The position numbers and the translations under genes were made by a program. Shown one piece after another: positions 13,625 to 23,247 of a stretch of 64,000 bases of DNA (positions are counted from its first letter, which is position 1; the number at the start of each line of letters is the position of its first letter). Under the pieces are notes generated by a model. It ran no database searches. It saw only the letters and a list, made by a program, of their open reading frames with translations, and was not told the DNA's origin. This stretch comes from Salisediminibacterium beveridgei (GTDB taxonomy: Bacteria; Bacillota; Bacilli; Bacillales; Salisediminibacteriaceae), in NCBI RefSeq assembly GCF_001721685.1, contig NZ_CP012502.1:3348001-3412000 (forward strand). Direction: 5' to 3'.

Positions 13625-16600
13625 TCAATTTGGTCCTTCTCCGTCCCTTAATTCACGGTAAACCTCATTCAAAATATCGTTCATCAGAAATTCTTTAAAT
13701 TCAGGGTCTTGCAAGATTCGCATATGAAATTCTTCATTCATATTCATCCTCGATATGACAGAATCCAAAAACGATTTTTCTGCGCTGTATTTGAAATTAT
13801 CAATGCTGTTGTTCTTCGCTTTTTCAGCCATCTCTTCCTGTTCTTTAATATCCATCGCAATCTGATCTCGAGAGAGTCTGTCCGCATCAGTAAAATACGT
13901 TCCGAACCTTTCATTGATACGCTCAATGATCGAAGACAAGCGCTCTTTTTCCTCTTCCGTTGATCCGGCTGTACCATGCTGGGCTGGAGACAAAGCCTCA
14001 CCGCCTTGCTGATTGAGCGAAATGCTACCTTCAAAAACTTTCTCATTTCTATAGTATTCCAACGCAACATCATCCGAAATATAGATCGGATCTTGCGGCT
14101 TTTTCGGCAACTTCTTTAGGAGATAGGTCAAGAAGATAAATCGTTTATGCAGATCCACGTCCGAGAACGGGCCGATCTGAAGCACGAACGCATACGTCCG
14201 AACAAACTTTGTTGCTGCCGACTTAAATGCTTCCTGTTCTTCCTCAACCAAGTCGTTTTTAAACCGTTCTACAGCCGGATCAAGGGAGGCATTTAACTTA
14301 AGCTGCATACGTGCATCCTTCATCGTATTCCCACTGTATTCAAGGTTTGCGACTGATTCAAGTTCTTCCTCAGTATAGACCTGCATGGCGTCTAACTCAT
14401 GCTGCAGATCATAGAGCATATTCGGATCGGTGTCTTCAGCCAAGGTCGTGACCTCATAGTACTGTTGGAAGGCCTGCTGAATCGTTTCAGGCTCGTTTAC
14501 GAAATCGAGGATAAATGTATCATCCTTGCCTTTGCACGTCCTGTTGAGCCTCGAAAGCGTCTGTACGGCTTTAATACCATCAAGCGGTTTATCCACGTAC
14601 ATGGTGTGAAGCAGTGGTTCATCAAAACCGGTCTGGTACTTCTCAGCCACGATCAATACCTGATAATCATCCGAATGAAACTGTTCCGGCAACTCCTTCT
14701 CGCTGATGCTGTTTAGATCCGGTTCCGTATACGATTCCCCATTGTCCTCAACAGTACCGGAGAAAGCGACAAGTGTCCGCATATCGGTGTACCCTTTCGC
14801 CTTGATATAATCATCAAAAGCAAATTTATAACGCACTGCATGTTTTCGGCTGCCTGTCACAACCATTGCCTTGGCCCTGTTATTAATTTTATGGCGAGTC
14901 ACATTACGGAAGTGTTCCACCATGATCTCTGCTTTCTGAGCGATATTGTGGGGATGAAGTGATACATACCTGGCAATTTGCTTTGAAGCCTTACTCTTGG
15001 CCACTTCCGGATCATCGTGAATCATCTTCTCGACTCTGTAAAACGTGTCATAGGTTACATAGTTATTCAAAACATCGTGGATAAAGCCTTCTTCAATGGC
15101 CTGACGCATCGAATAAAGGTGAAAGGGTCCCTTTTGGCCGTCTTCTCGTTCTGTGCCAAATCGGTCGATGGTTTTTGGCTTCGGCGTCGCGGTGAAAGCA
15201 AAGAATGAGATATTATCCTGATCACCGGTCTTGGCAATATGCTCAATCATGCGTTCTTCCGCATCCGTTGTCTCATGTTCTTCTTTCATACTTTCCTCAT
15301 AAGCTTCCTCAAGAGTTTTATCTGAAAGAATCGATGTCATCGCCCCTGAAGCTTTTCCTCCCTGCGAGCTGTGTGCTTCATCAATGATAACCGCATACGA
15401 ACCACGGTTAAACGAGCCGACTTCTTCTAAGATAAACGGAAATTTTTGCAGCGTCGTTATGATAATCTTTGTTTTATTCCGAATGGCCCCGGCAAGCTGA
15501 GCCGAGTCGCGATCAATTTTTGCGACCATCCCTGCTTTATGCTCCAGCTGGTACACCGCATCCTGTAACTGCTTATCCAACACCCTGCGATCGGTAATGA
15601 CAATGACGCTGTCAAAAACCGGTTCGTCCTGTTCATCGTGCAATTTCGCAAGGCGGTGAGAAAGCCAAGAGATGCTGTTTGTCTTTCCACTTCCTGCGGA
15701 GTGTTGAATCAAATAATTCTTACCAGCCCGATGCTCCGATACATCCTGTTCAATTTTGCGAACAGCATCCAGTTGATGAAAACGGGGGAAGATCACGACT
15801 TCTTTGGTTTCGATGATATCGCCATTGCTGTCTTTCATATCTTCTTTTTGGACATACACAAAGCGAAACAGAATATCCAGTAAACTGTCCTTTTGCAAAA
15901 TCTCTTTCCAGAGATACGAAGACCGGTAATCGTCTTCGACTGGCGGATTTCCTTTTCCGCCATCATTTCCGCGGTTAAAAGGCAAGAAGAAGGTACTGTC
16001 TTTACTCAAACGTGTTGCCATGTGTACCTCGTCGGTATCCACAGCAAAATAGACAACTGCACGGGCTTTAAACTGAAACAGTATTTCACGTGGATCACGG
16101 TCTTTCTTAAATTGCTCCATCGAGTGTTCAACCGTTTGATTGGTTAACTGATTCTTTAATTCTTTAACCACGATCGGCAGTCCATTCAATGACAACATCA
16201 TATCAATCGAATTCCGATTCTTCTGGCTGTAATACACCTGACGGCTGACGGTGAAGATATTCTTTTCGTAATTTTCAACGAGCGTTCGGTTCATGTCTGT
16301 TACCGGTTTGTTATAAGCGAGTTTCAGCGTAACCCCGTAATCCTTAATACCATGACGCAGACAATCAATCATCCCACGCTTTTTCAGTTCCTTATCAAGG
16401 CGACTCATGATCTTGAATTCATAGTCGTCTTTATAAGCTTTCTTGAGTCGTTCAAGGGATTGTGGCTGTGTTGATTCAAGAAATTCAAATAGCACATCCT
16501 GATCGATCGCCCATTTTTGAAACGTTTCAAGGGCTCTCCCTTCCAACGCCCGTTGGCGATACCCTGACTCCATTAAATGCTGTTCGATATTCTCTTCAAA

Positions 16601-16627
16601 TCCTCGTTCGCTATAATCGATACTCAC
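13625..16627 (-). CDS. hsdR: Type I restriction enzyme, R (restriction/translocase) subunit
   Basis: The protein has 1000 aa, the usual HsdR length. The N-terminal nuclease core is visible as NSIDMMLSLNGLPIVVKELK, giving the D and ExK residues near positions 140-160. The motor domains show the P-loop HSAGSGKT (near residue 310), the DEAH box IIDEAHSSQ (near 415), TATPKPKT, and motifs V-VI, including QTLSRLNRT. The C-terminal part is a charged helical region that would bind the methylase complex. It starts with GTG, overlapping the hsdS stop by 4 nt (GTGA), so translation is coupled. It translocates and cuts unmodified DNA when joined to HsdM and HsdS. Confidence 0.96.
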   Translation of the reverse strand: MSIDYSERGFEENIEQHLMESGYRQRALEGRALETFQKWAIDQDVLFEFLESTQPQSLERLKKAYKDDYEFKIMSRLDKELKKRGMIDCLRHGIKDYGVTLKLAYNKPVTDMNRTLVENYEKNIFTVSRQVYYSQKNRNSIDMMLSLNGLPIVVKELKNQLTNQTVEHSMEQFKKDRDPREILFQFKARAVVYFAVDTDEVHMATRLSKDSTFFLPFNRGNDGGKGNPPVEDDYRSSYLWKEILQKDSLLDILFRFVYVQKEDMKDSNGDIIETKEVVIFPRFHQLDAVRKIEQDVSEHRAGKNYLIQHSAGSGKTNSISWLSHRLAKLHDEQDEPVFDSVIVITDRRVLDKQLQDAVYQLEHKAGMVAKIDRDSAQLAGAIRNKTKIIITTLQKFPFILEEVGSFNRGSYAVIIDEAHSSQGGKASGAMTSILSDKTLEEAYEESMKEEHETTDAEERMIEHIAKTGDQDNISFFAFTATPKPKTIDRFGTEREDGQKGPFHLYSMRQAIEEGFIHDVLNNYVTYDTFYRVEKMIHDDPEVAKSKASKQIARYVSLHPHNIAQKAEIMVEHFRNVTRHKINNRAKAMVVTGSRKHAVRYKFAFDDYIKAKGYTDMRTLVAFSGTVEDNGESYTEPDLNSISEKELPEQFHSDDYQVLIVAEKYQTGFDEPLLHTMYVDKPLDGIKAVQTLSRLNRTCKGKDDTFILDFVNEPETIQQAFQQYYEVTTLAEDTDPNMLYDLQHELDAMQVYTEEELESVANLEYSGNTMKDARMQLKLNASLDPAVERFKNDLVEEEQEAFKSAATKFVRTYAFVLQIGPFSDVDLHKRFIFLTYLLKKLPKKPQDPIYISDDVALEYYRNEKVFEGSISLNQQGGEALSPAQHGTAGSTEEEKERLSSIIERINERFGTYFTDADRLSRDQIAMDIKEQEEMAEKAKNNSIDNFKYSAEKSFLDSVISRMNMNEEFHMRILQDPEFKEFLMNDILNEVYRELRDGEGPN

Positions 16628-17994
16628 TGGGAGACCTCCTCCGGATCAGATTCAACAGGAACATCATAATCACTGACATCGATTTTACCCGTAACAGCTT
16701 CGTAGATGAGGGACTGGCGGTATTCTTTGAGTTTAGAAATTTGCAAAAGAATCTCTTTCTTACTTGAAATCAGATGTTCACTTTGATCATCAATTTTTTT
16801 AACAATATCTTTTTGTTCTTTGATACTAGGAAAAAATATTGGCATGTTTTCTAATTCTTTAAATGAAATCGCTGGATAACTTACTCCTACAGATTTACTC
16901 ACAATATTCTCTACATACAAATTAGACCTCAATAAGTATGATAAAAACCTATCCTCCACCATTTTTTGAGGAGTGATAACTGCAAAACCTGTCGAGGCAA
17001 TTAAATTAGTTAAATCTTGGTCAATCCAAGTAATTGCTCTCAAATATGTTCTTACAGTAGAAATAAGTGTGTCTCCCTTTTTAACTACTCTCCTAGCTCG
17101 ACTTGGTGCACTCGAAAATTTATATTTTTCAATCCCAATTATTTCTCCGCTTGAATTAACCGAACCTATATCAATGTAATGTAAATCTAAATCCTTTGGA
17201 GTTGATTCTGACAAGACTTTATCATTTATTAAACATGTATGTTTAATCTTACTATCTTCCCAATGCTCCGGCACTTCTCCAATCCACTCCACACCTGAAT
17301 CCTTCATTTTCACATTCGGATCAAGTCCTTTTGTGACCGTCTCGGTGATGACTGCCTGGCGCTTTTCTTCAAGCAACTCAATTAATCGTTCTTTGTCGGC
17401 GATTAGCGTGTCGATTTCAGAGGTTTTTTGATTTAAATATTTTGAAATTTCTCTCTGTATCTGTAATGGGGGATATGGCACATATTCATTCATATAAGAA
17501 TTTATATCAAGATTCTGAATACCCGTTGTCTGTTTAATTGACCGTAAAGTTATTCGATGTGCATATAAAGTTGAATGCAAATACATAAAGTATTCTGAAT
17601 CCGCCAATTCACAATTTAATGTCATTTTTGCTATGAAATTAGCATACACAGCTGGCTTATTTAAATTATATCTAACAACAAAACCTACAGGTTGTTTATC
17701 TCCGCCTCCAGATTTTTCAATCAATAAATCTCCTTTTTCTAAAAGAAATTTATTGTTCTCAATAACATTTCTAACTGTTAAAGGTTTATTATCAATTACA
17801 AATTTTAATCTATTAAAATCTGCAACCCTTACACACTCAATGTCATTTTTATCTCTTTTTTGATCTTCACCCCAAACACCATTTTTAACTTTACTAATAG
17901 ATATTTTCAATCTGTTAATATTCCACGTTCTCGGAATTTCTCCTATCCATTCTAAACCTTCTTTTTTTATGAGAGATGAATTAATTTCACTCAC
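16624..17994 (-). CDS. hsdS: Type I restriction enzyme, S (specificity) subunit
   Basis: The protein has 456 aa with the two-fold layout of HsdS. Each half opens with a related motif (GLEWIGEIPRTWNINRLK near residue 13 and GVEWIGEVPEHWEDSKIK near residue 235). Each then has a target-recognition domain followed by a conserved coiled-coil spacer (IDTLIADKERLIELLEEKRQ and the C-terminal HLISSKKEILLQISKLKEYR). The recognition domains are much more AT-rich than the spacers, as expected if they are swapped by recombination. GTGA overlaps join it to hsdM upstream and hsdR downstream. It determines the bipartite recognition sequence, which cannot be read from sequence alone. Confidence 0.95.
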   Translation of the reverse strand: MSEINSSLIKKEGLEWIGEIPRTWNINRLKISISKVKNGVWGEDQKRDKNDIECVRVADFNRLKFVIDNKPLTVRNVIENNKFLLEKGDLLIEKSGGGDKQPVGFVVRYNLNKPAVYANFIAKMTLNCELADSEYFMYLHSTLYAHRITLRSIKQTTGIQNLDINSYMNEYVPYPPLQIQREISKYLNQKTSEIDTLIADKERLIELLEEKRQAVITETVTKGLDPNVKMKDSGVEWIGEVPEHWEDSKIKHTCLINDKVLSESTPKDLDLHYIDIGSVNSSGEIIGIEKYKFSSAPSRARRVVKKGDTLISTVRTYLRAITWIDQDLTNLIASTGFAVITPQKMVEDRFLSYLLRSNLYVENIVSKSVGVSYPAISFKELENMPIFFPSIKEQKDIVKKIDDQSEHLISSKKEILLQISKLKEYRQSLIYEAVTGKIDVSDYDVPVESDPEEVSQ

Positions 17995-20003
17995 ACCATC
18001 ACCTTCTTCAATTTCTCCAAAATACTCGCTTCTAGTTCCTGAATTTCAGCTTTGATTTCGTCTGATGGCCTTAACTGTTCATACTTATAAAAGTGCCTTG
18101 TAAACGGGATCTCATAACCGATTTTCGTCTTATCCTCATCAATCCAAGCGTCCGGTACGTGAGGCAATACTTCACGTTCAACGTATTCGTGAATGTCTTC
18201 TTTTAACGGAACATTCTCCGTATCACGAAGCTCAGGATCTGCTTCCAATTCACCTTTGGAATTCTTCAGACATACATCAGCCGTTTCATCACGTTCACCA
18301 AGAGCAGCAAGAATCGCTTTCAGCATTGGCGCTTTCGCATCCACACCAGCCTGTTTTAACGCATTCTTCAAAGCCTTTGTGAACGCATCTCGATTTTTAT
18401 AAAGCGTACCGTCTTGAAGCGTTTGTAACGCTCCCAGAATCGCTTGCTGCTTCTTCTGACCAGCTTCTACTTCCTTCTCGCCTGCTTCACCTTTTTTCTT
18501 TGATGTTGCAAGATTTTGAAACGCTTTTTGCTCATGAAGACGCTCAATACGTTCATCATCCACTTTAAAATTCAGTTTCAACGGTCGTTCAACGGTGATT
18601 TTTTGGAAGCCAAAATCTTCATTATCAAAGATTTTAACGTGCTCACCTTCTTGGTAATCACCATACATCTTAATAATCTCATTGATCTGATCCTGTGAAA
18701 TCTCATGACGTTTCTCGCCCAGGCTCTTTCGCATCTTTTGATAAAAGTCCACCGCATTAATCAGTTGGATCTTACCTTGTCGCCATTTAGCCTTATGATT
18801 GGTCAGAATCCAGATGTACGTTGAAATACCTGTATTGTAAAACAGGCTAGTCGGCATAGCCACAATCGCCTCAACCAAATCATTTTCAATCACATATCTG
18901 CGAATCTCACTTTCACCACTACCTGCGTCGCCTGTAAATAACGGTGATCCATTCATAATAATCGCAACTCGTGATCCCTTTGGATTATCCTCTGTCACTG
19001 GCTTCATCTTTGAAACCAAGTGCTGCAGGAACAAGAGCTGGCCATCTCCAATTCGAGGTAATCCTGCACCAAATCGACCTTGAAAACCCTGATCCTCATG
19101 TTCAGCTTTTACTGCCTTTTCTGCTGGTTTCCACTCGACACCGTAAGGAGGATTTGTGATCAAATAATCGAATTTATTATTCGGAAATGCATCTTTGGAG
19201 AGCGTGTTCCCAAACCGAATATTCTTCGCTTCTTCACCTTTAATCATCGTATCTGCCTTACACATCGCATAGGACTCTTCGTTGAATTCCTGCGCGAAGA
19301 ATGCCAGTTCTGCAGATGGATTTAAGTCTTTCAAATATTCCTGTGCAATAGACCCCATACCACCGGTTCCAGCACAGCTGTCATATAACGTTTGTGTGAT
19401 TCCCGGCTTTGTCAGGATGTCATGATCTTCGTTAAACATCAAACCCACCATAAGCCGAACGACTTCTCTAGGTGTGAAATGATCCCCAGCTTCAGCATGT
19501 TCTGAATATCGACGAATCAACTCTTCAAAGATATAACCCATTTCAAGATTGGATACGACCCCAGGATGCAAATCAATTTCAGAAAATCGCTTAATCGTCA
19601 GATACAATAAATCATTCCGATCCATCTTTTCAATCTGCTTATCAAAATCAAAATAATTAATAATATCTCTTGCAACACCAGAAAAGCCATTGATATAATC
19701 TCTGAAGTTTTCAGCCACGTTATCCGCATCATTTAAAAGCTTATTAAAATCATAGTTACTAACATTATTGAACTTCTGATTAGAAGTCCGATTTAAAATC
19801 TCATCCCTTGCTTCATCAGGTAACGTTTTATACTGTTCATATTGCTCCAATACAGCATCTTTTGTATCTTCTAATACACAGTCAAAACGTCGAAGAACCG
19901 CCATCGGAAGAATCACTTTCCCGTAATCCTCCGGTTTATAGGGCCCCCTTAGAATTTCTGCGATTGTCCATAAAAAATTAACCTTCTCTTGAAAATTGAC
20001 CAT
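17991..20003 (-). CDS. hsdM: Type I restriction enzyme, M (N6-adenine methylase) subunit
   Basis: The protein has about 670 aa. An N-terminal helical HsdM domain (MVNFQEKVNFLWTIAEILRG) is followed by the methylase core. The SAM motif is YDSCAGTGGMGS (near residue 215) and the catalytic motif is ITNPPYGVEW (near residue 285). The C-terminal region is long and charged and includes a lysine/glutamate-rich segment. The ATG at 20003 is chosen because the family begins exactly at this MxNFxEK motif; an ATG at 20015 directly abuts GAGGAG. It is first in an hsdM-hsdS-hsdR operon with 4-nt overlaps. It methylates adenine to protect host DNA. Confidence 0.95.
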   Translation of the reverse strand: MVNFQEKVNFLWTIAEILRGPYKPEDYGKVILPMAVLRRFDCVLEDTKDAVLEQYEQYKTLPDEARDEILNRTSNQKFNNVSNYDFNKLLNDADNVAENFRDYINGFSGVARDIINYFDFDKQIEKMDRNDLLYLTIKRFSEIDLHPGVVSNLEMGYIFEELIRRYSEHAEAGDHFTPREVVRLMVGLMFNEDHDILTKPGITQTLYDSCAGTGGMGSIAQEYLKDLNPSAELAFFAQEFNEESYAMCKADTMIKGEEAKNIRFGNTLSKDAFPNNKFDYLITNPPYGVEWKPAEKAVKAEHEDQGFQGRFGAGLPRIGDGQLLFLQHLVSKMKPVTEDNPKGSRVAIIMNGSPLFTGDAGSGESEIRRYVIENDLVEAIVAMPTSLFYNTGISTYIWILTNHKAKWRQGKIQLINAVDFYQKMRKSLGEKRHEISQDQINEIIKMYGDYQEGEHVKIFDNEDFGFQKITVERPLKLNFKVDDERIERLHEQKAFQNLATSKKKGEAGEKEVEAGQKKQQAILGALQTLQDGTLYKNRDAFTKALKNALKQAGVDAKAPMLKAILAALGERDETADVCLKNSKGELEADPELRDTENVPLKEDIHEYVEREVLPHVPDAWIDEDKTKIGYEIPFTRHFYKYEQLRPSDEIKAEIQELEASILEKLKKVMV

Positions 20004-20098
20004 GTTCAGAATCATCTCCTCATTTTCTCTCGTTCCATTTTAATGCGATAGGTGACAGTGGTTGTCAGCGATCGTATGTTTGTTTTCCTTGTCTTAAA

Positions 20099-21433
20099 TT
20101 AAACAATGATTTCATTTGTTAATTTTTCTATCTCTTTCTTTACTTCTTGATCCGATTGCTGGAATTCCTTCTTTTTAATGGCTAAAATAATTTTTTCCTG
20201 ATCTGAAATTGGAATGGCAGGAACCAGGAGTTCTTTTATATCTTTCAGCTTGATAAACACCTGCGATGATCCACTTGCACGCTGCTGAAGCTGTGTCAGC
20301 CCCCACTCTGTCATCATGAAATAGCTTAAAAACAAAGGAAGAAGTTTCTCTCGATTCGCCTCAACTAACGTGATATGTTGGCTCGCCAAAGCACCTGAAA
20401 AAGCTTTATCTGCGACGCCGGTTTTACCGACAGTTCCTACCCTTGAAATCAATACATGATAAGGCTTTATAATAGCCTTCTCGAATTTTTCAGCCCATTC
20501 CTCTGACACATACACAAGTTCATGATCCGTTAATGTACCCTTTTCGATATTTTTTATACGAATATATGGAGTCCCTTCGTCCTGATATTCTTTTGCTGAA
20601 ATGGTAGCCCCAGCTTTGAACGAAACCGCCAATGATTCTAATGGTCTCATCGGCACCCTTGCTTCTTTCTCCAGGTCAACTTCGTTTAAGCTCGAGGCAA
20701 CATCCCAACGGCCCTCTAGCTCGCAATAAGAAATTGCACTATACAGTGTTCGATGCTTCTGTTCCTGACTGACAGGGCTGAAGACATCGAAATCCCGGAG
20801 TACCGATTCAACCAAATCTCCCAGTGATTGAACACTCATTTGTTTTTGATACCATTGATTATAGAGTTTCTCTGCGGTTTGTTCTTGCTCGTCTGTCACC
20901 CCATAAATCGGTAACTTGACGTCCTTTACATCCTTAGTTTTCATCGTAGGGATCGCATTTCCTCTTGCGATCAGCATGAATTTTGAACGAACGTTGTCAG
21001 TCCTTAATACGAAATAGAGCAAATATGAAAATGTACGTTGATGAGGGCGTATAACAATAAATGTATTATTGACCAAACAGCCTGATAAATTGTCAGTGAT
21101 TCTCGCAACTGCATTTCGCTCAGGGCGCACACTGGATAGAATGAGATCTCCGGTTTGAACCTGCAGCGTTGCTCTCGCTGGAAGCTTTGCACCTTCCATT
21201 TCTTTTATTTCTTCTACCATGCCTTTTTCCGGAGAAAGGGCAGATATATCAATATAACGATAAATCTCGTCTACTTGAATCTCTGTTTTCTTTAATTTGA
21301 CGGGATTTAAGCTCGCAAGTTTTTCAAGTGCCGGACCTTGCTCCCTTTTAGTATTTAATGCTGACAAAAGAGCATTGATTGACCAATCTTTCTTAGTGAT
21401 TTTTTCATAAGGAAGCGTCATCGTTGTATTCAC
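20099..21433 (-). CDS. HsdS-like specificity protein of second, atypical unit
   Basis: The protein has about 444 aa, with two regions resembling target-recognition domains of type I S subunits. The first half includes VKLKKTEIQVDEIYRYIDIS and GDLILSSVRPERNAVARI. The second includes GATISAKEYQDEGTPYIRIK and HVLISRVGTVGKTGVADKAF, ending in a helical tail. The start is placed at the GTG at 21433 because it overlaps the upstream stop as GTGA, with GGGGGAGG just before it. It shares little visible sequence with the hsdS at 16624-17994. It is probably the DNA-recognition partner of the methylase-like protein encoded just upstream. No R subunit belongs to this unit. Confidence 0.75.
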   Translation of the reverse strand: MNTTMTLPYEKITKKDWSINALLSALNTKREQGPALEKLASLNPVKLKKTEIQVDEIYRYIDISALSPEKGMVEEIKEMEGAKLPARATLQVQTGDLILSSVRPERNAVARITDNLSGCLVNNTFIVIRPHQRTFSYLLYFVLRTDNVRSKFMLIARGNAIPTMKTKDVKDVKLPIYGVTDEQEQTAEKLYNQWYQKQMSVQSLGDLVESVLRDFDVFSPVSQEQKHRTLYSAISYCELEGRWDVASSLNEVDLEKEARVPMRPLESLAVSFKAGATISAKEYQDEGTPYIRIKNIEKGTLTDHELVYVSEEWAEKFEKAIIKPYHVLISRVGTVGKTGVADKAFSGALASQHITLVEANREKLLPLFLSYFMMTEWGLTQLQQRASGSSQVFIKLKDIKELLVPAIPISDQEKIILAIKKKEFQQSDQEVKKEIEKLTNEIIV

Positions 21434-22821
21434 AATTCCTCCCCCTTCTTCCACTTCTCAAATCCCTGAACGGCCTCTGTAAATTCATCGATTGTTTCAC
21501 AATCTGCTGCGAACAAATTTTTAGGTTCTTTTTCATCCTGCTTCTTTTTCCTCAAGACAAGTACACCAACTTTAATGCTCGTTAAAGGCTTTAATGTGTG
21601 GGTGGGAAGACTGATTATCGCTTCGATCACCATTCGATCCAGTAACAAAGATCTTGTATTCTCGGATGTACCCTGATACAAAAATGCCTCGTTCACGAAA
21701 CAAATAATATATCCTTCCGGTTTTAGAATCTCTGTTGCGCGCTCCAACATTAAATCCAATGCTTGTATAGCTTTCTTATTCAATTCATAGCCTGTATATC
21801 GACGTGGGGGTAAACGAAACCCTAAAGGCGGATCGATAATGACAAGGTCTTGCTGATTTGGAAGTTCATGATCCCGATCCAAAACATCACCTTGTTTAAC
21901 CTTAATATGTTCGTGTCCACTGATAATCATGAGCATCTTGTGATAATTTGCTACATATTCATTCAGTTCCATTCCAAAGTATGATCCGATTTCATCTTTT
22001 TGCTGTAAAAGGCCACTTGTAATACGTCCATAGCCTGCACACATTTCCAATACAGAGTAATCAGATAATTTTAGGACATTAATTAATCCAACGAATAAAT
22101 CTCTCACAGATGAGGCTGTGCGGTGATTTCCATCATACTCATTTATCTCAGACAACGAAATCAATGAATCGGCGTGTTTAGAATCCTTATGCCTCACCTC
22201 TCCTAGCTTCCACTTGAAGAGTTCAAAAGATAATTTATTAACGTTCGTCTTTTCGGGTAATAAATCAATCTGATAATATTGAAATGCTTCGTCAACCAGG
22301 TCTTGATAATCATCCTCTTTTAAGTCCAACCACTCATGCAATGAAGACATTTCCTCCATATAAGATCGAACCAGCATACCTTGAACGATATAGATCCACG
22401 TCTTTTCAGGCCGGAATTCTCCCCTTAATCGATCAACAATTTGCCACAATAAATCCTTCTGAAATTTTTCTGAGTTTATATATTCTCGAGAGCTATTAAA
22501 TATTGGTGGTTCAGCCTGGAGGAATGTGTCTGTTTCAAACCAGACCTGTTTTTCCGGTGTAACCAATAACGCATAAGGGACCGGTATCGCCTCTGTCAAC
22601 TTCATCAACTGTTGTTGTGATCCCTTTGTAACGCTATCTTTAATTTCAACCACAACTTGAGGAATTAATTCTCCATCTTCATCAATCGTATATCCTATCA
22701 AATCCGCCTTTAGATTTGATGTAGGACTGCTGCGAACTTCATCTTTTACAATAACGATCCCCTGTTCTTTCAAATCATGTACCTTTTTTAACTTAAGTTC
22801 CATTTCAGGTCCAGCGTACAT
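21430..22821 (-). CDS. Nuclease/N6-methylase-like fusion with altered catalytic motif
   Basis: The protein has 463 aa. Residues about 36-62 hold a PD-(D/E)XK-like pattern, with Asp40 in LKADLIGY and Glu59-x-Lys61 in VVVEIKD, as in type I R-protein N-terminal domains. Residues about 225-440 resemble the HsdM methylase core, with VLEMCAGYGRITSG (SAM loop, 257-270) and the usual downstream ILKPEGYIICFV and ISLPTHTLKPLTSIKVGVLVL. The catalytic motif expected to be NPPY or NPPF is instead IDPPLG (Asp330-Leu333). Loss of both Asn and the aromatic residue makes normal adenine methylation doubtful. It is the middle gene of a three-gene unit. It could be a BcgI-like enzyme, a SAM- or DNA-sensing nuclease, or a decayed methylase. 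Confidence 0.7.
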   Translation of the reverse strand: MYAGPEMELKLKKVHDLKEQGIVIVKDEVRSSPTSNLKADLIGYTIDEDGELIPQVVVEIKDSVTKGSQQQLMKLTEAIPVPYALLVTPEKQVWFETDTFLQAEPPIFNSSREYINSEKFQKDLLWQIVDRLRGEFRPEKTWIYIVQGMLVRSYMEEMSSLHEWLDLKEDDYQDLVDEAFQYYQIDLLPEKTNVNKLSFELFKWKLGEVRHKDSKHADSLISLSEINEYDGNHRTASSVRDLFVGLINVLKLSDYSVLEMCAGYGRITSGLLQQKDEIGSYFGMELNEYVANYHKMLMIISGHEHIKVKQGDVLDRDHELPNQQDLVIIDPPLGFRLPPRRYTGYELNKKAIQALDLMLERATEILKPEGYIICFVNEAFLYQGTSENTRSLLLDRMVIEAIISLPTHTLKPLTSIKVGVLVLRKKKQDEKEPKNLFAADCETIDEFTEAVQGFEKWKKGEEL

Positions 22822-22844
22822 CGCTCAAAACTCCCTCTCTGCAA

Positions 22845-23141
22845 TTATGCAATGATTCTTTCTTTATCCGGATTTGGATAAAATGACATCAATTTTTGCA
22901 AATATAAATTTTCTCTTTCTTCTTCTTTTCCTAACAGATACTCATCATACGATATCTGTTCAAGTTTTCGAACTGCACTGATACCACCTCGACTCTTCTT
23001 AACACCTGGCATCGATGAAACAAGATCGTACACATCTATAGACCTGAGTTTCTTCGACGTCACCAGATAACGCGATACACTAATTTCATTACTGCGCCCA
23101 ACATGTCCATAGGAACAAACAACTTTCCAATACTCATCCAC
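22845..23141 (-). CDS. 98-aa protein leading the atypical restriction-like unit
   Basis: This is a small protein (MDEYWKVVCSYGHVGRSNEI at the N-terminus, then basic SRYLVTSKKLRSIDVYDLV and GVKKSRGG). It starts with GTG, nine nt after AAGGAG. It precedes the methylase-like gene by 23 nt and is the first gene of the leftward three-gene unit. No cysteine cluster or clear helix-turn-helix is seen, although the basic centre would suit nucleic-acid binding. I do not recognise the family. Possible roles are a regulator, an inhibitor or a required small subunit of the complex. Confidence 0.6.
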   Translation of the reverse strand: MDEYWKVVCSYGHVGRSNEISVSRYLVTSKKLRSIDVYDLVSSMPGVKKSRGGISAVRKLEQISYDEYLLGKEEERENLYLQKLMSFYPNPDKERIIA

Positions 23142-23170: not shown

Positions 23171-23247
23171 TAAAATACCATTGGTGCGTTCTTATTACAT
23201 GTTAATCGATGTCGCTTTAGAAGTCAACGAAATACGCACCATTTGAT
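23171..23247. promoter_or_regulatory. Inverted repeat upstream of the atypical defence unit
   Basis: TGGTGCGT (23182-23189) and ACGCACCA (23234-23241) are exact inverted copies, each flanked outward by similar AT-rich sequence (TAAAATACCA and TTTGATTTA). The pair lies within 110 bp upstream of the GTG of the 98-aa gene, where an operator or promoter would be expected. The rest of the 23248-23555 gap is AT-rich without a supported gene. Confidence 0.4.

Follow-up and report, generated by a model that had tools for sequence, protein, structure and literature searches.

A three-gene cassette upstream of a type I system

The region analyzed here, a 64,000-nucleotide stretch of the Salisediminibacterium beveridgei genome (NZ_CP012502.1, positions 3,348,001 to 3,412,000, hereafter the window), carries three genes encoding successively a small protein of 98 amino acids (aa), a 463-aa protein joining a nuclease-like N-terminus to a methylase fold (M-like protein) and a protein resembling the specificity subunits of restriction-modification (R-M) systems (S-like protein), followed by the genes of a type I R-M system (Table 1). 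A previous sequence-only reading of this DNA had described the three genes as co-directional, head to tail and tightly spaced, and had pointed out D40, E59-x-K61, CAGYG and DPPL in the M-like protein; the open reading frames (ORFs) were found as placed and each of these motifs was located in the sequence. The recurrence of this gene order in other genomes indicates that the arrangement is not due to chance. The three genes form a conserved cassette, which we tentatively read as one module, an adjunct heading interchangeable R-M operons. Its appearance is not that of a standard restriction unit, although it may still work like a type IIB enzyme. No publication describing it was seen among the results listed by a search limited to the open-licence literature.

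The methylase part of the M-like protein matches Pfam N6_Mtase (7.7e-14) and the S-like protein matches Methylase_S (1.2e-14); the domain-profile scan that recognised both returned no match for the 98-aa protein. According to ORF coordinates, 23 base pairs (bp) separate the small gene from the M-like gene, and the following gap is -4 bp if the S-like protein starts, as we read it, at a GTG overlapping the TGA stop of the M-like gene (GTGA) behind GGGGGAGG. The longest ORF of the S-like gene spans 20099-21454 (451 aa), its recognition domains covering about residues 58-195 and 273-425, within bounds that we set. No further full-length copy of the M-like protein exists in this 3.58 Mb single-contig genome, the next match being 24% identical over residues 255-445 and lying in a 335-aa frame.

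Table 1. Positions in the window of the cassette, its upstream region and the adjoining R-M genes
Feature	Position	Strand	Remarks
Small protein, 98 aa, cassette gene 1	22845..23141	-	GTG start; predicted beta-beta-alpha-beta-alpha fold, tentatively ribosomal LX/eL20-like
M-like protein, 463 aa	21430..22821	-	PD-(D/E)XK nuclease domain, helical connector, methylase fold
Nuclease domain of M-like protein, residues 1-105	22507..22821	-	contains D40, E59, K61
Motif IV of M-like protein, DPPL, residues 330-333	21823..21834	-	
S-like protein, two target recognition domains	20099..21433	-	probable start GTG at 21433
Element copy next to presumed transcription start	23179..23193	+	CATTGGTGCGTTCTT, 1 mismatch to consensus
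Inverted element copy immediately before -35	23230..23244	-	AAATGGTGCGTATTT, 2 mismatches
Sigma-A-like cassette promoter TTGACT-17-TAACAT, between element copies	23199..23227	-	9/12 matches; rests on position
HsdM of neighbouring type I system, NPPY	17991..20015	-	
HsdS of neighbouring type I system	16624..17994	-	
HsdR of neighbouring type I system	13625..16627	-	

Conservation of the cassette and diversity of its partners

Ten cassette loci (designated by L numbers) were examined, duplicates being counted once (L001/L008/L038/L063 as the window, L009/L039/L073 as L048, L010/L040 as L049, L055 as L058, L057 as L060 and L059 as L003). The S-like gene is present in all ten and the 98-aa gene in nine, so that the lack of conserved partners which would have refuted the sequence-only reading is not observed. 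In every locus, R-M genes follow the cassette on its own strand, and the gap to the next gene is -1 to 185 bp. These partners are of unrelated kinds, eight of type I, one HSDR_N-methylase fusion with an S subunit and one type III-like, and the HsdR genes near cassettes belong to these adjoining variable systems. This constant position before unrelated kinds of partners argues against the very improbable explanation that the cassette is a passenger without functional tie to the neighbouring R-M genes, in other words that defence genes have clustered at island hot spots. Consistent with such clustering are the integrase- or recombinase-like ORFs seen by eye upstream in L006, L007, L048 and L058, the location of L006 and of two 98-aa genes outside any cassette (L053 and L054) within about 10 kb of groEL, and the presence of another gene between cassette and R-M genes in four of the ten loci.

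In L004 (8983-11721) the cassette is apparently decaying, since the 98-aa gene was not found, the S-like gene is split into two ORFs and a single copy of the upstream element described below is kept. L049 (9869-11725) encodes a 618-aa S-like protein fused to a ResIII-type ATPase piece (PF04851, 2.9e-17), in which GAGKT is present and motif II is not DEAH-like by eye, the S-like protein being joined there to a motor part.

Scoring of the 7,993 candidates sharing most words (alignment A4) added one member, P0134, and among 200 genomes of the order of G026, the latter was the sole genome with a match. A tblastn search of a plasmid collection with the M-like protein yielded 114 records, none of which covers 80% of the protein; the 40 matches listed are all partial, at 24-31% identity, and often correspond to named type I M subunits. 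No match to the 98-aa relative of L006 was obtained on plasmids or phages, and pattern scans of viral contigs revealed no relative of the M-like or 98-aa families. A plasmid or phage origin of the cassette was rejected on these results, the tblastn search with the M-like protein having covered the plasmids and not the phage collection.

Constant recognition domains in the S-like protein

The specificity subunits of R-M systems are known for swapping their recognition domains. Among the cassette S-like proteins these domains are the best conserved part (mean identity of 44.4% and 43.7% vs 26.7% and 28.3% for the conserved regions, over 45 pairs and with the bounds that we set), the reverse of ordinary HsdS. 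Moreover, the identity of the S-like proteins is at least as high as that of the M-like proteins in 31 of the 45 pairs (mean ratio 1.05), whereas the neighbouring HsdS share on average 19.6% (36 pairs) vs 25.9% for HsdM, L049 being excluded from this partner comparison because of its type III-like partner. The contrast is clearest between L006 and L058, the cassettes of which are 83% (98-aa), 81% (M-like) and 76% (S-like) identical, with all 60-column windows of the S-like protein at 70-87%. Their neighbouring HsdM and HsdR are both 91% identical and their HsdS only 30%, with windows down to 19%. Between these two loci, the neighbour has swapped its recognition domains and the cassette has not.

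Because the cassette S-like protein stays constant while the neighbouring HsdS varies, its DNA target is probably constant as well. One constant target would be hard to cover with changing methylases, which makes the neighbouring methylase an unlikely standing protection; the earlier suggestion that the cassette depends on the adjoining type I methylase for self-protection is consequently disfavoured, the neighbours belonging to different R-M families with the divergent HsdS reported above.

Nuclease domain and altered motif IV of the M-like protein

In the AlphaFold model of the M-like protein (mean predicted local distance difference test score of 87.6), residues 1-105 adopt an alpha-beta-beta-beta-alpha-beta succession with D40 lying in strand 38-46 and E59 towards the end of strand 52-60. 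The D and E are kept in the 18 members having this region and the K in 16 of them (R in P0008, T in P0006). At E<=1, Pfam HSDR_N_2 matches six of the 18 relatives (best 0.00084) and PDDEXK_3 five (best 2e-05), the window protein being among neither group. The nuclease-like N-terminus proposed earlier is thus supported by the model fold and by the matches of the relatives.

Motif IV of these methylases is typically N-P-P-aromatic (PMC3874165). The 18-member alignment contains 15 DPPL, two DPPF (both from Fictibacillus) and one TPPF; with P0134, read by eye as a sixteenth DPPL, the family amounts to 16 DPPL, two DPPF and one TPPF (n = 19), and no NPPF or NPPY member is found among the matches listed. 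The 36 control proteins with a methylase fold, made up of 27 from other loci and the nine neighbouring methylases, display 19 NPPF, 14 NPPY and three DLPI, all nine neighbours having NPPF or NPPY. The altered motif IV beside a kept S-adenosylmethionine (SAM) pocket, pointed out in the sequence-only reading, is thus supported, and the mixture of NPPF and DPPL homologues with proven methylation that would have refuted this reading was not encountered among these matches. The three DLPI controls (L020, L023 and L033) are 317-361-aa proteins of the same fold with this broken motif. The family count leaves out P0013 and G007_L062 (the methylase of G007 is L011 among the controls), the tree leaves out the partial P0012 and the outgroups P0013 and G007_L062 and was built before P0134 was known, and P0101 was left out of alignment A3. 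In this tree the F-bearing members stand at two separate nested tips and the outgroups carry NPPF; by parsimony, DPPL appears ancestral within the family, unless the midpoint root lies on an F-bearing branch.

On the SAM side, all 18 aligned rows carry G263 and E285, and D312 is nearly invariant. Two phenylalanines of BsaXI stack the flipped adenine, F526 of N-P-P-F and F360 (PMC11997821). The latter corresponds, by our counting, to family column 233, occupied by Y or F in 14 of the 18 members and by H in the window protein. As the SAM-side residues and, in most members, the aromatic of column 233 are kept and motif IV is altered, SAM and perhaps a flipped base are likely bound without methyl transfer, a situation for which the inactive EPPL of METTL14 offers a precedent (PMC5023411). 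A role of a methylase domain in cleavage is documented in the fused enzyme RM.BpuSI, where it facilitates this reaction (PMC3817140), and the N473A mutant of TspGWI likewise ties methylase to cleavage (PMC3968444), the change of the first residue of NPPY having also impaired cleavage in both enzymes.

These data bear on the improbable alternative of an ordinary small type IIB enzyme (BcgI/BsaXI-like) methylating and cutting one fixed site with an active DPPL. It would agree with a domain order and fold identical to those of BsaXI, with the kept SAM pocket and the aromatic residue of column 233, and with the DPPF of two members. Against it stand the L replacing the stacking aromatic residue in 16 of the 19 members, the D or T replacing N in 19 of 19, and the controls, 33 of which have NPPF/Y and the other three DLPI; furthermore the recognition domains lack the variation of the neighbouring HsdS, and another R-M system adjoins in 10/10 loci.

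An inverted element around the cassette promoter

The word CAYTGGYGCGTWWT recurs in inverted orientation around the best sigma-A match upstream of the cassettes. In the window, the promoter and element copies (23179-23244, just upstream of the cassette) had been absent from the sequence-only reading. With at most two mismatches to the consensus, 13 matches were counted in the 2,521 bp upstream of the cassettes (8/10 loci), 14 in 221,114 bp elsewhere in the cassette loci and seven in the 253,721 bp of 39 control loci, none of the latter with at most one mismatch; mononucleotide shuffles gave a mean of 0.09 matches and a maximum of 2 (300 shuffles). Both copies reach this threshold in five loci (window, L003, L005, L006 and L058) and the second copy is weaker in L048; the top sigma-A match lies between the copies in these six loci, being tied in L048. 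The exact CAYTGGNGCGTWWT was found in 11 of 73 loci, every one of them a cassette locus or a duplicate of one. L007 and L049 are without the CAYTGGYGCGTWWT word and contain instead three copies each of CGTGTT and GGTGTGT, respectively, the former all within GTCGTGTT and in one orientation; 0 of 5000 shuffles reach either count, for words chosen after being seen.

Shared ancestry of the non-coding DNA alone appears a poor explanation of the element, since the proteins of the loci are mostly less than 50% identical; L006 and L058 are however close kin. The element might also belong to a housekeeping regulon, the strict pattern having 2-12 matches per genome in 10 genomes; some of the pairs, however, resemble by eye terminator stems with T runs.

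The 98-aa protein, a possible alternative reader of the element

Relatives of the 98-aa protein number 240 at E<=1e-3, and 119 of the best 120 were aligned with the window protein. The gene is also found outside the cassette, with five intact and two broken copies in 10 matching genomes, and in five of six cases in another genome sample, of which four of the five cassette-free regions were inspected. The contexts of these orphan genes (nine regions; genera g41, g125, g335 and g506) have no common neighbour, and no such element was seen by eye upstream of seven of them. The predicted alpha/beta fold weakly resembles the ribosomal protein LX/eL20 (Foldseek E 0.07), with no other fold among the structural matches listed, the matched ribosome chains being presumably eL20.

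ORF reading of the orphan contexts suggested one Wadjet-like gene set, one divergent HsdM/HsdS pair and several housekeeping genes as neighbours. The relatives in L053 (455-739) and L054 (5289-5573) lie about 2-10 kb from groEL; by our reading one adjoins the Wadjet-like set and the other the divergent HsdM/HsdS. In L046 and L047, from the same genus, all the 98-aa copies have internal stops. Distant 79-aa relatives occupy the same place in two g335 genomes (L069 7209-7448 and L072 5897-6136), with a CoA-binding-like gene on one side and a YigZ-like gene on the other as judged by eye, which may point to an older, housekeeping function of this small-protein family.

The small protein could itself be an autoregulator binding the element, with a function like that of RptR or C proteins and an apparently different fold, the M-like and S-like proteins then forming a distinct effector nuclease directed at a constant target of its own. 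We consider this rather unlikely. Its gene comes first, directly behind the element, its predicted fold resembles that of a nucleic-acid-binding ribosomal protein, and RptR, a small type I-linked repressor, is a precedent (PMC12255303). Conversely, the orphan genes (about 36-58% identical to the query relatives) show no such upstream element, the fold match is weak, and one element copy persists in L004, where no 98-aa gene is found. In our estimate the M-S complex is somewhat likelier than the 98-aa protein to be the reader of the element.

A putative self-regulated adjunct of restriction-modification operons

The interpretation that we favour, while giving it less than an even chance, is that a type IIB-like, SAM-binding, probably non-methylating complex of fixed specificity forms, together with the small protein, a self-regulated plug-in for interchangeable R-M systems. 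The sequences show that the genes are conserved and linked, that their partners are exchanged while the recognition domains stay constant, that motif IV is altered and that the nuclease residues and the element are conserved; from this we infer complex assembly, non-methylation, element binding, gating or conditional cleavage, and read-through. Like the subunits of type IIB enzymes, the M-like and S-like proteins would most likely assemble as a slim (RM)2S complex, which would bind SAM and one fixed DNA element without methylating it, owing to DPPL. The bound SAM would set a DNA-binding or cleavage-competent shape. Through the inverted element around its own promoter, the module would control its own expression and, by read-through, that of the downstream R-M genes, and the conserved PD-(D/E)XK site would cut conditionally, gated by SAM, by the 98-aa protein or by paired sites. 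Since the element is long and has few genomic copies (2-12 matches to a shortened pattern per genome), protective methylation may be dispensable, which in our view most simply reconciles an intact nuclease site, a dead methylase and a constant S-like protein.

In a more specific version, which we regard as unlikely, the methyltransferase-derived complex would be a fixed-specificity controller and guard of the interchangeable R-M operons, its S domains reading their own long inverted operator and SAM acting as an allosteric ligand instead of a methyl donor; the nuclease would be held in reserve for the same rare element, for instance against incoming rival copies or upon failure of R-M control.

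Several observations weigh against the favoured interpretation. Sigma-70-like sites are not enriched upstream of the cassettes (nine vs a shuffle mean of 10.3), and the regions used to count the element are those from which its consensus had been derived by eye. For the 15-base pattern, the window alone gives four matches with at most two mismatches vs 1.66 expected, a number reached in eight of 100 shuffles; this count being unremarkable, the case for the element rests on its place and recurrence. Nor is the element unique, the pattern YTGGNGCGTWWTT giving 67 matches across 10 genomes (2-12 per genome, at least five in total being cassette copies) vs 32 for the reversed control. As a contiguous word of 12-14 bp, the element departs from the usual bipartite site of S subunits, and the 98-aa protein also co-varies with it and occupies the usual autoregulator position. 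A pure regulator would not need the nuclease site that is conserved here, and the R-M ORFs of L004 look full length in spite of its missing 98-aa gene and split S gene. Finally, the members with DPPF or TPPF might methylate, and the altered first residue of motif IV could disable the whole enzyme, by analogy with the N406A change in the NPPY of RM.BpuSI, which abolished SAM binding and cleavage (PMC3817140).

The S-like protein of the cassette is thus a relative of specificity subunits whose recognition domains are its most conserved part, joined to a seemingly non-methylating methylase and yoked to unrelated R-M systems. If the favoured interpretation is true, the cassette would represent a general add-on to restriction that puts the S-M fold to a new use, and it would allow the target of a specificity protein as yet uncharacterised to be guessed from its own promoter. 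It also places an unnamed small-protein family in a context.

Comparison with known systems

The family profile of the M-like protein finds its best sequence match in the Protein Data Bank with lmo1582 (2f8l, 8.8e-17), which has the same fold and a broken motif IV (DLPV), and belongs to what we take to be the YtxK family; proteins of this type are however about 317-361 aa long and have no nuclease domain. Among the PADLOC profiles, mad2 of the MADS system ranks first for the M-like protein (2.2e-24) and mad5 sixth for the S-like protein (3.7e-28), but these profiles also match ordinary HsdM (3.5e-23) and HsdS (3.7e-41). MADS membership was rejected, the scores being far below the NCBIfam cut-offs (21.9 of 720 bits for MAD2 and 100 of 400 for MAD5), and no further mad gene appeared among the matches listed for the nine window proteins scanned.

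Compared with type I HsdM/HsdS, the cassette differs by the fusion of a nuclease to the M-like protein, a motif I of the DL/DM..GYG-like form, a motif IV other than NPPF/Y, recognition domains that are conserved and not variable, and no recognised HsdR of its own. It resembles RptR and C-protein control by a small gene upstream of R-M genes and a repeated operator at the promoter (PMC12255303; HsdC, PMC5282649). RptR, as characterized in the former report, is nevertheless a helical 79-aa homodimer acting on TAGCTA repeats without an M-S pair; the 98-aa protein, alpha/beta in its model and associated with another element, was not retained as an RptR. SsoII-type systems likewise use a methylase as transcription regulator of their own operon (PMC3978073, PMC6100179), but their enzyme is a cytosine methylase that carries a regulatory region at its N-terminus, where the cassette protein has a nuclease domain.

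The closest likeness is with the type IIB enzymes BcgI and BsaXI, as the sequence-only reading had recognised: a nuclease-methylase fusion with an N-terminal PD-(D/E)XK domain, a helical connector and a gamma-methylase fold, target recognition being left to a separate S protein with two such domains. Type IIB enzymes cut on either side of their site and methylate its two strands. The essential residues of BsaXI comprise E73, D90, E105 and K107 (PMC11997821). According to the same source, the models of RM with S other than BsaXI show a helical C-terminal tail of RM contributing to a four-helix bundle with S. The model of the M-like protein ends at helix 444-458, with no C-terminal tail seen, and the aligned HsdM chains stop near residues 400-500. 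Filing the cassette as a type IIB member was rejected because the defining N-P-P-aromatic motif IV is replaced by DPPL in the window and occurs in 0 of 19 family members. It further differs from type IIB by the length of its M-like protein (463 aa vs 916 for BsaXI), by DPPL where BsaXI has N-P-P-F, by its nearly fixed recognition domains, and by its position, with a 98-aa gene, at the head of another R-M operon.

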